NCBI RefSeq assembly: GCF_036287235.1
Contig: NZ_CP142850.1
Coordinates: forward strand, 2,633,336 to 2,697,335
From: Exiguobacterium sp. 9-2
GTDB taxonomy: Bacteria; Bacillota; Bacilli; Exiguobacteriales; Exiguobacteriaceae
DNA length: 64,000 nucleotides
Reading direction: 5' to 3'
Shown: positions 2,081 to 5,630 of the stretch, piece after piece
How positions within the stretch are numbered: position 1 is the stretch's first letter
Layout: the number at the start of each line of letters is the position of its first letter
Program-made: the position numbers and the translations under genes
Notes under the pieces: generated by a model
The model's database searches: none
The model's input: the letters and a program-made list of their open reading frames with translations, nothing else
What the model was told of the DNA's origin: nothing

Positions 2081-2959
2081 ATGGATCAATTCATGTCACC
2101 GCAAATCGGCTTAGCATTACGCCGACTGCGAAAGAAACATAATCTGACACAAAAAGATTTAGCAAACGGAATTTGCAGTCAAGCTGAGATCAGTAAGATC
2201 GAGAGTGGCACCCATTCGCCAACGGTCGAGTTGCTCTATGCGTTATCACGTCGATTGCAAGTACCGATAACTGCATTTCTTAATAACAATAATTCTCATG
2301 TTGACTCTCTACGTTTGACGGATGATCGGTTATTGACCGCTTTTCAAAATCAAGAGTATGAAATAATCTATCGAGAAGCTCAAGAAAAAGTAAACTCAAT
2401 AAGTTTTGATGAAGAATTAAGATCACTTTACTCATACTATCTCCATATAAGTGCATATCGCATGAATAAAATAGATTACCGAACTTGTATAGTAGAATTG
2501 CAATTACTTGCAGAGAAATATTCAACCATCTATTTTTCACCTAAAATGTTGGTTCGATTAAAGTCAGCAATCGCTACTCTTTATTATGAAAAAAAGAACT
2601 ATTTGTATGGTCTTAAAGTATACGAAGAATTAATCAACTTAAAATTTGATAGCGACGAACTTTTAGTAGAAAAGATACGAATTTTATATAACACTTCAAA
2701 AGTATTAATTGATTTAAGACGACCAACAGATGCTTTAAAATATATCAATGATGGTATACTGCAATGCTTACGATTTAAAGATATGTCTTTATTAGGTCAA
2801 CTTTATTATCAAAAAGCTTATGCCTTAGAACTCATGGAAGAAGAATTAAGTTTGATAAAAGACTCTTATCAAAAAGCTTATCTTCTATTTGACATATTAC
2901 AAATGAATGAGTATAAGCAAATTCTTTCAAATGGAAAAAGTCAATTCCTTGAACAGTAA
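2081..2959 (+). CDS. PlcR-family peptide-responsive transcription regulator
   Basis: The 292-residue protein has an XRE-type helix-turn-helix at about residues 5-60 (LTQKDLANGICSQAEISKIE) followed by an all-helical TPR-like domain to the end. The C-terminal part contains LLGQLYYQKAYAL and AYLLFDILQMNEYKQIL, matching the PlcR pattern LIGQLYYQR and FFFDILEMHAYKEAL that I recall for Bacillus cereus PlcR, and the middle has IDYRTCIVEL like PlcR VDYEYCILEL. Length also fits PlcR (285). The start at 2081 is chosen because GGACGAGGAG precedes it; an upstream in-frame start at 2000 would overlap the operator region. PlcR-type regulators are cytoplasmic and are switched on by re-imported PapR peptides. 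Its stop lies 4 bp from that of the convergent repeat-peptide gene, its probable signal partner. Confidence 0.9.
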   Translation: MDQFMSPQIGLALRRLRKKHNLTQKDLANGICSQAEISKIESGTHSPTVELLYALSRRLQVPITAFLNNNNSHVDSLRLTDDRLLTAFQNQEYEIIYREAQEKVNSISFDEELRSLYSYYLHISAYRMNKIDYRTCIVELQLLAEKYSTIYFSPKMLVRLKSAIATLYYEKKNYLYGLKVYEELINLKFDSDELLVEKIRILYNTSKVLIDLRRPTDALKYINDGILQCLRFKDMSLLGQLYYQKAYALELMEEELSLIKDSYQKAYLLFDILQMNEYKQILSNGKSQFLEQ

Positions 2960-2963
2960 CTAA

Positions 2964-3398
2964 TCAAACAAGTGGTTTTACTAAGAACTCTGCTGGAAGA
3001 TCATTCTTCGCAACTTGTTTCACTGAAAACTCTGCTGGAAGGTCGTTCTTCGCAACTTGTTTCACTGAAAACTCTGCTGGAAGGTCGTTCTTCGCAACTT
3101 GTTTCACTGAAAATTCTGCTGGAAGGTCGTTCTTCGCAACTTGTTTCACTGAAAATTCTGCTGGAAGATCGTTCTTCGCAACTTGTTTTACTGAAAATTC
3201 TGCTGGAAGATCATTCTTCGCAACTTGTTTCACTGAAAATTCTGCTGGAAGATCGTTCTTCGCAACTTGTTTCACTGAAAATTCTGCTGGAAGATCGTTC
3301 TTCGCAACTTGTGTAGTGCTATTTGATACCGTTACACCAAGTCCTAATACTAATAAAGCACTTGTGCTTGCTACGACTAATTTCTTTTTCAAGTTCAT
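2964..3398 (-). CDS. secreted multi-copy signalling peptide precursor (PapR-like, eight repeats)
   Basis: The 144-residue product has a Sec signal peptide (MNLKKKLVVAS then a hydrophobic LLVLGLGVTV core, cleavage near residue 25-29), eight head-to-tail copies of QVAKNDLPAEFSVK (residues 30-141) and the tail PLV; only the last copy differs in sequence (EFLVK). Each copy holds NDLPAEF, close to PapR pheromones of the form SDLPFEF/ADLPFEF that bind PlcR. The gene starts at 3398 behind AATAGGAGG and is convergent with a PlcR-like gene, with 4 bp between stop codons. The reading that the protein is exported, cut into several identical peptides and re-imported to bind the regulator follows from the PlcR-PapR model; the multi-copy arrangement is unlike PapR, which carries one copy. 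A repetitive surface protein is the alternative. Confidence 0.85.
   Translation of the reverse strand: MNLKKKLVVASTSALLVLGLGVTVSNSTTQVAKNDLPAEFSVKQVAKNDLPAEFSVKQVAKNDLPAEFSVKQVAKNDLPAEFSVKQVAKNDLPAEFSVKQVAKNDLPAEFSVKQVAKNDLPAEFSVKQVAKNDLPAEFLVKPLV
2976..3311 (-). repeat. eight tandem 42-bp coding repeats
   Basis: Eight exact-length 42-bp units encode the 14-residue repeat of the signal precursor. Differences between units are few and sit at codon third positions (Asp GAT/GAC, Asn AAC/AAT, Glu GAA/GAG, Val GTG/GTA), so the peptide is unchanged except for one Ser-to-Leu change in the last unit. The repeats lack spacers and are coding, so they are not a CRISPR array. Confidence 0.95.
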
Positions 3399-3646
3399 TT
3401 AAATAACCTCCTATTATTTTTCGTATGGCTTCGTAACAACATCATATAACCTTAGACCCCCTCTGAATATTCGAATACGAATAATTATGGTATTTTACAC
3501 ATTTTTTTCATTTTCTATTACTTTTGGCTCGGGTCATATGTCCCTAAAAATGCGTTTTTCTTACAAATCATCCATCAATATGTAGAACTTGTGTATGAAA
3601 ATAGATTTTTCTGAATATTTAACTATGATAAAATTTTGTAACAGAC
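3399..3646. other. AT-rich intergenic region before the repeat-peptide gene
   Basis: This stretch holds the ribosome site AATAGGAGG at 3404-3412, a 10-bp palindrome TATTCGAATA near 3467-3478 and the PlcR-box-like site at 3486-3501. No convincing -35/-10 pair for the minus-strand gene was found and no small frame with a ribosome site was seen. Confidence 0.4.
3486..3501. promoter_or_regulatory. possible PlcR-box-like site upstream of the repeat-peptide gene
   Basis: TATGGTATTTTACACA matches 8 of the 10 fixed positions of the PlcR box TATGNAN4TNCATA and lies about 90 bp upstream of the precursor start codon. In Bacillus cereus such boxes sit at variable distance upstream of the -10 of activated genes, including papR. 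The region is AT-rich, so a chance match is possible. Confidence 0.35.
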
Positions 3647-3697
3647 AAAAAGAGAGCTAGTCCAACTCATACGAGTCGAACCAGCTCTCTTTATTTT
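3647..3697. terminator. strong bidirectional terminator
   Basis: A 10-bp stem AAAGAGAGCT/AGCTCTCTTT with an additional inner ACTC-GAGT pairing is followed by T-rich sequence on both strands. On the minus strand it ends the 57-residue membrane protein gene, whose stop codon lies inside the hairpin. Confidence 0.85.
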
Positions 3698-3864
3698 GAT
3701 GATTGTCGTAACGCGATGACATAAAATATACCGAGTATGAGAATCACACCTAGTAGTATCGAACTAATTGTCGTCCGAGTCGATGTATCCGGCATCCATA
3801 TCCCGAGTCCCAAATTGATTGCTGCGATAATTAGGACGAGCCAAACGATCGTACGTGGTCGCAT
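3691..3864 (-). CDS. 57-residue membrane protein
   Basis: ATG 3864 is preceded by GGAAGGAGATCGGT and the frame ends TAA at 3691 inside a terminator. The product has two hydrophobic helices (residues about 6-23 and 34-52) joined by a short polar loop with PDTSTRTT. No family is recognised; many Bacillales genomes have such two-helix proteins of unknown role. The good ribosome site and terminator argue that it is expressed. It is divergent from the LOG-family gene. Confidence 0.7.
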   Translation of the reverse strand: MRPRTIVWLVLIIAAINLGLGIWMPDTSTRTTISSILLGVILILGIFYVIALRQSSK

Positions 3865-3942
3865 ACCGATCTCCTTCCTGGTCTCCCCTGCCGTCCGATC
3901 ACCGAATATGCTATGGTGACACTAACAAAGGAGGTTCTGTTC

Positions 3943-4524
3943 ATGAATAGACTTGCAGTGTTTTGTGGTTCTAAAGATGGCGCGCATCCCGTCTTTCGCG
4001 AGGCAGCGGGCACACTTGGTCAAGCGCTCGCCGCACGCGACATCGGACTCGTATACGGCGGTTCCCGCGTTGGGACGATGGGGGCTGTCGCGGATGCTAC
4101 GCTTGCGGCTCAAGGTCAAGCGATCGGTGTCTTACCCCACTTTCTACAAGAAAAGGAATTAGCACACCCCGGACTGACTGAATTGCATCTCGTCCACTCG
4201 ATGCACGAGCGGAAAGCGAAGATGTCAGAGCTTGCCGATGGCTTCATTATTCTTCCTGGCGGACCCGGGACGATGGAAGAGTTTTTCGAAGTCTTTACGT
4301 GGACACAACTTGGTCTGCATGAAAAACCTTGTGGTGTACTCAACATTGACGGGTACTATGACTCCTTGATTACCCTGTTCGACACGATGGAACGTCAAGG
4401 ATTCTTGATTCCCGAACACCGAGCGATGCTGGTCGTCGAGTCGGATCCGGATCGTCTCTTAGAACGCTTCGCCACATATGAAGCACCACGCGTCAAAACG
4501 TATATGGATCGCTCACAAACCTGA
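3943..4524 (+). CDS. LOG-family nucleotide phosphoribohydrolase
   Basis: The 193-residue protein has the two family motifs: GGSRVGTM (residues 39-46) and PGGPGTMEE (105-113), with MHERKAKM between them (87-94) supplying the conserved Arg and Lys. Members of this lysine-decarboxylase-like superfamily (TIGR00730) cleave cytokinin riboside or other nucleoside 5'-monophosphates to base and ribose 5-phosphate; true lysine decarboxylase activity is not expected. The start at 3943 follows AAAGGAGGTTCTGTTC; a start ten codons upstream lacks this spacing. It is a single gene with its own terminator. Length is normal for the family. The natural substrate cannot be read from sequence. Confidence 0.92.
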   Translation: MNRLAVFCGSKDGAHPVFREAAGTLGQALAARDIGLVYGGSRVGTMGAVADATLAAQGQAIGVLPHFLQEKELAHPGLTELHLVHSMHERKAKMSELADGFIILPGGPGTMEEFFEVFTWTQLGLHEKPCGVLNIDGYYDSLITLFDTMERQGFLIPEHRAMLVVESDPDRLLERFATYEAPRVKTYMDRSQT

Positions 4525-4530
4525 TGAAAG

Positions 4531-4553
4531 CGGAGTCCTCGACTCCGTTTTTT
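4531..4553 (+). terminator. terminator of LOG-family gene
   Basis: A 6-bp GC-rich stem CGGAGT/ACTCCG with a short loop is followed by eight T residues, starting 7 bp after the stop codon. Confidence 0.9.
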
Positions 4554-4639
4554 TTGATGCATTCGCATACTCTTCCGATATTTCTTCTCTCACTTACTAG
4601 TTTTCTCCACTCCGTTTCAGGATTCCTACTCTTTTGGCA

Positions 4640-4670
4640 CAAAAAAACCAGATGCACAGAGGCATCTGGT
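4640..4670 (-). terminator. terminator of tagGH operon
   Basis: Stem ACCAGATGC/GCATCTGGT with a 6-base loop is followed on the minus strand by a run of T residues, just past the tagH stop codon. Confidence 0.9.
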
Positions 4671-4676
4671 AAAACG

Positions 4677-5630
4677 TTAGAAGAACTTCATGATTGCGTC
4701 GCTAAGATTCGTCAAAGACGGTGTCTCGTCAATGACCATCAAACTACCTGCTGCAATCGCGAGTAATCCGAGACCTGATAAAATCCAGCCAGGATGTTTT
4801 ACGTTGACGTCAGCATCGACGTTTTCTTTTCCGGACCGCGCATTTGCTGCTTGTTCCTTCAAGCGATCGCGACGGTACTGATGTTGTTCCTCTTTTGACC
4901 ATTTCTTATATTCTGCGAGGAACTTCTTATATTCTGGTAAGACATCCTTCGTCGTCCCGTCGAGTCGAACTTGACCGTATTCGAGCCAGACGACACGCTC
5001 ACAGAAACTCTTGATTTGCGAGAGCGAGTGACTGACGAAGATGATGGTCTTGCCTTCGTCCTTGAATTCGTTCATCTTATCGATACAACGGTTATAGAAG
5101 GTTTGGTCACCGACCGATAATGCTTCATCGACGATCAAGATGTCGGCATCGACATTGACAGCGATTGCGAAGCCAAGTCGTGACTTCATCCCACTCGAGT
5201 ATTTCTTGATTGGCTGATCAATGAAGTCACCGATATCCGCGAAATCGATGATTCCAGGCATCCGACGTTCGATTTCCGCATCGTCCATCCCAAGCAGGAG
5301 ACATTTTAAGCGAATGTTCTCGCGTCCTGTCAGCACGTTCTTCAATCCTTGGGATACGGCGATGATCGCGACTTCTCCGTTGATCGCGACGTTTCCTTCG
5401 TTCGCGTAGATGATCCCTGAAATCAGGTTCGAGAGCGTCGATTTACCCGAACCGTTGATTCCGACGAGACCGACGACTTCTCCTTTTCCGATCTCAAGTG
5501 AGATATCGCGTAAAGCTGTAAATGTTTTAACGCTCTTGCTTTGATTTTTGAACAAGAGCTTGAATTTTTCTTTCGTAGTCGTGACCATGTCGAAGCGTTT
5601 CGTGACATGGTCGAGTTTAATCATAGACAT
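4677..5630 (-). CDS. tagH: teichoic acid ABC exporter, ATP-binding subunit
   Basis: The 317-residue protein has Walker A GINGSGKS (about 57-64), signature YSSGM, Walker B ILIVDEAL and the H-loop FVSHS in normal order. As in TagH, the ATPase domain is followed by a charged linker and one C-terminal transmembrane helix (about 284-302, LSGLGLLAIAAGSLMVI); this tail is longer than in simple polysaccharide exporters but shorter than Bacillus subtilis TagH (527 residues). With TagG it moves undecaprenyl-linked wall teichoic acid across the membrane. ATG 5630 is preceded by GGAAGGAAATCGCC. It follows tagG with a 15-bp gap and ends at a terminator. Confidence 0.93.
   Translation of the reverse strand: MSMIKLDHVTKRFDMVTTTKEKFKLLFKNQSKSVKTFTALRDISLEIGKGEVVGLVGINGSGKSTLSNLISGIIYANEGNVAINGEVAIIAVSQGLKNVLTGRENIRLKCLLLGMDDAEIERRMPGIIDFADIGDFIDQPIKKYSSGMKSRLGFAIAVNVDADILIVDEALSVGDQTFYNRCIDKMNEFKDEGKTIIFVSHSLSQIKSFCERVVWLEYGQVRLDGTTKDVLPEYKKFLAEYKKWSKEEQHQYRRDRLKEQAANARSGKENVDADVNVKHPGWILSGLGLLAIAAGSLMVIDETPSLTNLSDAIMKFF

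Follow-up and report, generated by a model that had tools for sequence, protein, structure and literature searches.

A predicted PlcR-type receptor and multi-copy PapR-like precursor pair in Exiguobacterium, with sensor domain and peptide array in one mosaic block

Two convergent genes close to the start of a 64,000-nucleotide stretch of Exiguobacterium sp. 9-2 DNA (the window; host genome 3.06 Mb, labelled G000) raise the question of whether a regulator and a repeat-rich small protein, whose stop codons lie 4 bp apart, form a peptide-signaling pair, and of what many copies of one peptide in a single precursor would mean for such a pair. A preliminary description had proposed a PlcR-like regulator facing an eight-copy PapR-like pheromone precursor. 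Both open reading frames were recovered, as were 8.0 repeat units, and the following features were assigned (window position, strand, identity and basis).

2081..2959, plus strand: PlcR-like receptor/regulator, 292 aa (open reading frame, RNPP_C, PlcR as best PDB match, AlphaFold2 model)
2081..2269, plus strand: N-terminal HTH part of the receptor, aa 1-63 (HTH_3, E=3.4e-14)
2270..2956, plus strand: C-terminal TPR-type sensing part of the receptor, aa 64-292 (helices in the predicted model)
2964..3398, minus strand: putative multi-copy PapR-like pheromone precursor, 144 aa (open reading frame; same build across the genus)
3315..3398, minus strand: Sec-type leader, aa 1-28, MNLKKK followed by a hydrophobic stretch (by eye)
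2975..3312, minus strand: array of eight 42-bp units (Tandem Repeats Finder)
3279..3299, minus strand: heptapeptide copy 1, NDLPAEF (sequence; core set by the selection pattern)
3237..3257, minus strand: heptapeptide copy 2 (as copy 1)
3195..3215, minus strand: heptapeptide copy 3 (as copy 1)
3153..3173, minus strand: heptapeptide copy 4 (as copy 1)
3111..3131, minus strand: heptapeptide copy 5 (as copy 1)
3069..3089, minus strand: heptapeptide copy 6 (as copy 1)
3027..3047, minus strand: heptapeptide copy 7 (as copy 1)
2985..3005, minus strand: heptapeptide copy 8 (as copy 1)

In agreement with the earlier assignment, profile and structure searches placed the regulator inside the PlcR/RNPP group. 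The Pfam model RNPP_C (PF18768) matched at E=1.2e-34 (120.1 bits, cut-off 26.5), and the best PDB sequence match was PlcR (E=4.3e-36, residues 7-287 aligned), followed by 9sf2 (2.4e-5, HTH part only) and PrgX (0.02). An AlphaFold2 model built from 21 sequences (pLDDT 87.6) returned PlcR entries at Foldseek ranks 1-5 and then ComR, Rgg and PrgX. Whole-chain superposition on PlcR gave TM 0.59-0.69 and rmsd 8.6-13, suggesting that the receptor's domains are set differently from those of PlcR. With 292 aa the protein lies within the 250-500 aa range of RRNPPA receptors, and it has their arrangement of an N-terminal HTH and a C-terminal TPR-type domain. Additionally, mapping through the PDB sequence alignment equated PlcR residues N201, K204, Q237 and Y275 with receptor residues N204, K207, Q240 and Y278, all invariant in 19 of 19 orthologues. 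In the accessible part of PMC6568020, Q237 and Y275 of PlcR touch the PapR glutamate; N201 and K204 are taken here as presumed counterparts of PlcRa N205 and K208, whose contact roles come from a figure legend (PMC3519770). PlcR K87 and K89, which also contact the peptide glutamate, are not conserved in the 19 Exiguobacterium orthologues, a difference from the Bacillus system.

The neighbouring gene has the build of a small secreted precursor, with 144 aa and a leader that appears Sec-like by eye, although it is longer than the 10-100 aa propeptide size range of RRNPP_detector (PMC10075063, consulted in part). Tandem Repeats Finder gave a period of 42, 8.0 copies and 96% matches over 2975-3312, and the translation holds eight QVAKNDLPAEF cores, seven followed by SVK and the final one by LVK. 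A second frame, of 114 aa, runs uninterrupted along the opposite strand of the array (2972-3316) and is taken as a by-product of the repeat period. The heptapeptide form xxLPxEF fits the PapR-type peptides ADLPFEF and CSIPYEY quoted in the accessible text of PMC3519770. No library model labelled the precursor a pheromone in the profile search, and its Pfam match to Cytokin_check_N (8.5e-8), for which no single stretch passes, is taken as a repeat artefact. The absence of a pheromone label would also suit a secreted structural, adhesive or antimicrobial repeat protein, to which the receptor would be unrelated or merely the regulator; we consider this highly improbable given the match of the core to PapR-type heptapeptides and the agreement, described below, of receptor and peptide subtypes within one mosaic block. 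Against the pheromone reading itself, five to nine residues trail the last core in 17 precursors and no copy ends at the C-terminus, so that release would require a cut after E-F/Y/H, for which no protease is known.

The pair is a property of the genus. A receptor orthologue was found in 18 of 18 Exiguobacterium genomes, the own genome included (the others 56-79% identical), and in 0 of 19 genomes of the sister genus at 1e-10; a nineteenth genus member, G061, belongs to the same species as the window's genome. Receptor and precursor share a contig in 17 of these 19 genomes, that is, in 16 of the 18 besides the own genome, which is more than chance would give. In the remaining two the pair is split by contig ends: G006 carries receptor and precursor on separate contigs (four copies, the count uncertain), and in G015 the receptor contig stops inside the array, leaving only the last unit visible by eye beside the receptor. 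The precursor start MNLK(K/N)K was present in 16 of 16 genus precursors; the search pattern itself demanded MNLK(K/N), and pattern-free open reading frame lists gave the same starts. All 18 genus precursors that were read are repeated, with 2-9 copies (8, 3, 7, 6, 8, 9, 4, 2, 3, 6, 5, 7, 5, 5, 3 and 6 in 16 genomes, and 5 in G061). Their main cores are NDLPAEF, GHLPPEY, DLLPPEH, NNLPTEF, NGLPLEY, TELPYEY, ERIPLEY, ERLPLEY, KEIPFEF, QDLPYEY, KGLPLEY and KELPFEF.

Each genus genome also carries 1-6 further PlcR-like paralogues, mostly in one tandem cluster with no visible precursor. In the own genome this cluster (G000:C1:1786231-1789189) comprises three PlcR-like regulators and a broken remnant, and sits between PatB-like aminotransferase and GGDEF-EAL genes (both by eye). 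Inspection by eye of the small secreted-looking open reading frames in seven stretches (L036, L092-L094, L101-L103) yielded no precursor for the cluster, under a hydrophobicity filter by which a poor leader would be missed. The cluster paralogues are possibly orphan or eavesdropping receptors.

Since the copies inside one precursor can be compared with each other, the array itself indicates which residues matter. For 17 precursors, a codon-level comparison was made among the copies inside each, with the core defined as positions -3 to +3 about the proline and the linker as +4 to +8 and -8 to -6. Between copies, the core showed 4 amino-acid and 94 silent differences, as opposed to 30 amino-acid and 24 silent differences in the linker. 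Of the four core replacements, G008 and G009 have one each and the final copy of G016 has two. A minimum-event count for each precursor gave 4 replacement and 66 silent changes in the core, and 27 and 19 in the linker (Fisher p=2.7e-10, a value that is indicative only because the copies are related by duplication). These in silico counts indicate that selection holds the seven-residue core alike between copies while the linkers drift, and the contrast between core and linker suggests that selection acts on the heptapeptide of the internal copies as well. This bears on the alternative of an array produced incidentally by slippage, in which one copy gives the signal and the rest are ballast. Copy numbers ranging from 2 to 9 are what slippage would yield, and single-copy relatives do exist in other genera; the core codons, however, vary almost entirely silently, the linkers do not behave in this way, and single-copy precursors number 0 of 18 in the genus, leaving the slippage explanation improbable.

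Upstream of the precursor gene, three further elements were assigned.

3407..3412, minus strand: AGGAGG, Shine-Dalgarno sequence for the precursor (found in 16 of 16 upstream regions)
3441..3446, minus strand: putative -10 box TATGAT, with no recognisable -35 (TATATGATG in 16 of 16 upstream regions)
3468..3483, unstranded: putative operator TATTCGAATACGAATA, palindrome TATTCGN4CGAATA (TATTCGTATTCGAATA in 16 of 16 upstream regions)

A generic promoter scan, which gave 7 matches where 6.9 were expected, omits the TATGAT box and offers 3511-3484 (minus strand) instead. Exact TATTCGN4CGAATA sites occur twice in 17 of the 19 genus genomes and three times in the other 2, and the reversed control gave 0 in 19 of 19; in the sister genus, which has no receptor match, one site was found in 2 of 19 genomes, equal to the reversed control. 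The 20-bp form AATATTCGN4CGAATATT occurs in the own genome at 2 places with 0-1 mismatch, and at 9 places with 3 mismatches against 9 in the control. The 16-bp operator is less exclusive once mismatches are allowed: with up to 2 mismatches, the own genome has 191 matches to it and 108 to the reversed form, and at least three of the 191 differ at a single base. On the question of a large regulon of secreted factors like that of PlcR sensu stricto, the counts point both ways, exact sites being few while the relaxed 16-bp form outnumbers its reversed counterpart. The third exact sites (G017:C1:2246207 and G010:C23:67036) are possible extra targets. We infer that this receptor, and not a paralogue, binds the predicted operator. 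Just 5' of the receptor gene there is a different inverted repeat, TGGTAC-CCT-GTACCA (2036-2050), and the TATTCG palindrome is absent there. The canonical PlcR box (TATGnAnnnnTnCATA in the accessible text of PMC2464732, with 28 active boxes for 45 genes) was rejected as the operator, with 52 sites against 37 reversed over the 19 genomes and none at the precursor. In single-copy relatives the box does stand 5' of the precursor, exactly in Planococcus maritimus, P. versutus and genome G306, and one base off on the Exiguobacterium sp. Helios plasmid; by this comparison the Exiguobacterium palindrome keeps the geometry of the PlcR box but differs in its letters.

The second exact operator site lies 5' of a conserved gene for a 265-aa protein, present in 19 of 19 genomes, the spacing having been viewed in five of them. 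In the own genome this gene occupies G000:C1:1769027-1769821 (L081, 624-1421, minus strand) and its product has a very conserved C-terminus, LWIDDITTSKNGRSHQI. By eye, it adjoins a mannitol-phosphate dehydrogenase gene, found in 17 of the 19 genomes, the other two stretches ending early. The own-genome protein has no Pfam match at E<=1 and no PDB relative below E=0.4. When 14 orthologues were compared with Pfam, four gave weak SPDY matches (best 0.08) and one a MlrA_C match (0.062), all taken as chance and rejected as an identity. Among 200 Bacilli genomes the protein was found in the six of Exiguobacterium and in 1 of the 194 others, there weakly and with stops.

We consider it likely that receptor and precursor are a PlcR-type peptide quorum-sensing pair that activates at TATTCGN4CGAATA. 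The precursor would be exported by Sec and cut by extracellular proteases on both sides of each unit, freeing several identical heptapeptides per precursor; the heptapeptide would re-enter through an oligopeptide permease (the genome has nine OppA-type matches, PF00496) and bind the receptor, and the two together would activate transcription at the palindrome beside a promoter that has no good -35 box. The 265-aa protein is the second predicted output. With the operator at the precursor promoter, pheromone production is predicted to be self-amplifying, and more gain per transcript from a multi-copy precursor is plausible. The reverse logic, in which the unbound receptor sits on the palindromes as a repressor and is removed by the re-imported peptide, would be served by the same promoter, as the palindrome adjoins the -35 region, where a repressor could act too. 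We nevertheless regard repression as improbable, because the poor -35 region suits an activator and because PlcR, the nearest characterised relative, is activated by its peptide (PMC6568020, accessible part). Taken together, the profile, PDB and Foldseek matches, the operator and the selection pattern give good in silico support to a PlcR-like receptor with a multi-copy PapR-like precursor.

Comparison of the two same-species genomes exposed a further property of the locus, a block with sharp edges.

2221..3380, unstranded: exchangeable block, comprising the HTH end, the sensor domain and the peptide array up to the first precursor codons (identity to G061 falls inside and recovers at the edges)

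Against the window, G061 shows 96.3% identity over 453-2265 and 97.0% over 3377-5550; between 2251 and 3300, identity falls to 40-62% per 150-bp window, with the edges near 2221-2265 and 3380. Its precursor encodes four KGLPLEY and one DGIPLEY in place of the eight NDLPAEF of the window. Across the 18 other genus genomes, the HTH part of the receptor is 83-98% identical to that of the window and the sensor part 46-75%. Nine of 17 genomes form a supported clade A in the mtlD tree (99/100), the rest not being shown as one clade; in the sensor-domain tree the members of clade A are scattered among the other genomes, and keeping clade A together is rejected (AU p=0.00135). On that same tree the residue between P and E requires 5 changes, the minimum for six states, a count that 0 of 2000 shuffles over 15 rows reached. 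The final peptide residue follows the receptor tree less well, taking 4 changes where 2 would do. These in silico results indicate that receptor subtype and peptide subtype agree, and that a single mosaic block contains both sensor domain and array. With the genes tail to tail and their specificity halves adjacent, signal and receptor can change together in a single recombination event.

How peptide types came to be shared among species admits two accounts. In the first, which we put forward tentatively, the block would be a pherotype cassette: the constant HTH on one side and the constant promoter and leader start on the other would serve as homology arms, sensor and array would move as one piece from strain to strain and from species to species, copy number would tune dose, and the main target of the signal would be a single conserved gene from a new protein family. 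In the second, peptide types common to distant species are old alleles under balancing selection and not the result of recent exchange. LPAEF-type sensor domains are merely 72-75% identical between species, which implies that their split is not recent, and old balanced alleles are possible for the deeper sharing of peptide types. On the other hand, the alike flanks and unlike, sharp-edged blocks of G000 and G061 require a replacement in one of the two, whatever the age of the alleles, and as an alternative to exchange we think the second account rather unlikely.

To place the pair among known systems, the closest comparison is with PlcR-PapR and PlcRa-PapRa of the B. cereus group, with which it shares whole-length homology and fold of the receptor, a peptide of the form xx(L/I)PxE(F/Y), a precursor beside the receptor and, in front of the precursor gene, a promoter palindrome of 6+4+6 bp that begins with TAT and closes with ATA. 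The plcR and papR genes of B. cereus are in tandem order, unlike the convergent Exiguobacterium pair, and PapR has one C-terminal copy as opposed to eight internal copies in the window precursor. Several matched peptide types exist in both, four of them in B. cereus (PMC6568020, in the part available). The operators differ as well, TATTCGN4CGAATA replacing TATGnAnnnnTnCATA, and the two exact sites in Exiguobacterium stand against the B. cereus figures given above (PMC2464732, as excerpted).

The repetition of a peptide behind a leader also recalls the yeast alpha-factor precursor, in which a leader is followed by spacer-peptide repeats. KR occurs in several Exiguobacterium linkers as a further likeness, whereas the window linker SVKQVA is without KR and the yeast system is an unrelated eukaryotic one.

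Relatives of the receptor also occur outside the genus. At E<=1e-20 a receptor was found in 36 of 398 Bacilli genomes, 19 Exiguobacterium and 17 others. Among the 17, a candidate precursor was recognised by eye in 10 (nine single-copy, one two-copy) and none was found in the other seven under the filter. Some of the candidates are without E (LRLPYQH, FDLPFIN). The two-copy case, in genome G046, is a convergent 57-aa precursor (L095, 8936-9109, minus strand) with two AGTLPDIY copies beside a 29% identical receptor. In five genomes of one genus (L098, L166, L168, L169, L170) the precursor ends in LRLPYQH and lies divergently 5' of the receptor gene, representing another gene order and peptide type. 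A 27-33% identical receptor is carried on nine plasmid records, of which eight stretches were read. Plasmid pairs of P. maritimus, P. versutus and Exiguobacterium sp. Helios resemble the window pair in having a 28-31% identical receptor and a tail-to-tail precursor, and differ in having a single copy at the very C-terminus (IDIPFEH, TELPFEN and TELPFEH, respectively) and in their PlcR-type boxes. In Helios this is a second pair, single-copy and tail-to-tail, on plasmid NZ_CP053558.1, ending in KTELPFEH. These convergent single-copy pairs suggest that the array may have arisen later than the tail-to-tail layout. The P. glaciei plasmid stretch has a PlcR box and no recognised precursor, and no precursor was found in the L. 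fusiformis, E. alkaliphilum and S. horikoshii plasmid stretches. A phage origin was rejected, there being no match in phage records at 1e-5.

The preliminary description had held multi-copy precursors to be unusual in the RNPP family, and this stands only in part. According to the accessible text of PMC9765709, atypically large AimR, NprR, Rap and PlcR propeptides hold repeated mature peptides, with 'up to six copies', and duplicated Phr propeptides release active internal peptides, as demonstrated for Rap-Phr, with 'up to 8' copies mentioned (PMC11343458, in part); Phr105 carries two identical pheromone copies in one precursor with the spacer LKLA (PMC11343458). As multi-copy RRNPPA precursors, PlcR-type included, are thus published, the multi-copy layout itself is not new. 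Repetition appears sporadic there (3 of 15 large propeptides for PlcR in the portion of PMC9765709 available), whereas in Exiguobacterium 18 of 18 precursors are repeated. Our search of the accessible literature returned no report of genus-wide fixation with up to 9 copies, of the altered operator, of the second target or of the sensor-plus-array block. In the parts accessible, the mentions of Exiguobacterium and PlcR in one paper are unrelated to each other (PMC3171730), and one paper mentioning Exiguobacterium and RNPP names NprR (PMC5521131).

These results suggest that multi-copy RRNPPA precursors can persist stably throughout a genus. The small number of exact operator sites makes the predicted output, the 265-aa protein of Exiguobacterium, open to direct test. 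The locus further offers a natural experiment on the joint change of a peptide signal and its receptor: copies within one precursor reveal, via selection, which seven residues would be the signal; sorted by the residue that separates P from E, the 19 genomes fall into six matched classes; and a same-species pair differs sharply just in the block. With that block differing wholesale between near-identical strains, close Exiguobacterium relatives may use different peptide 'languages'.
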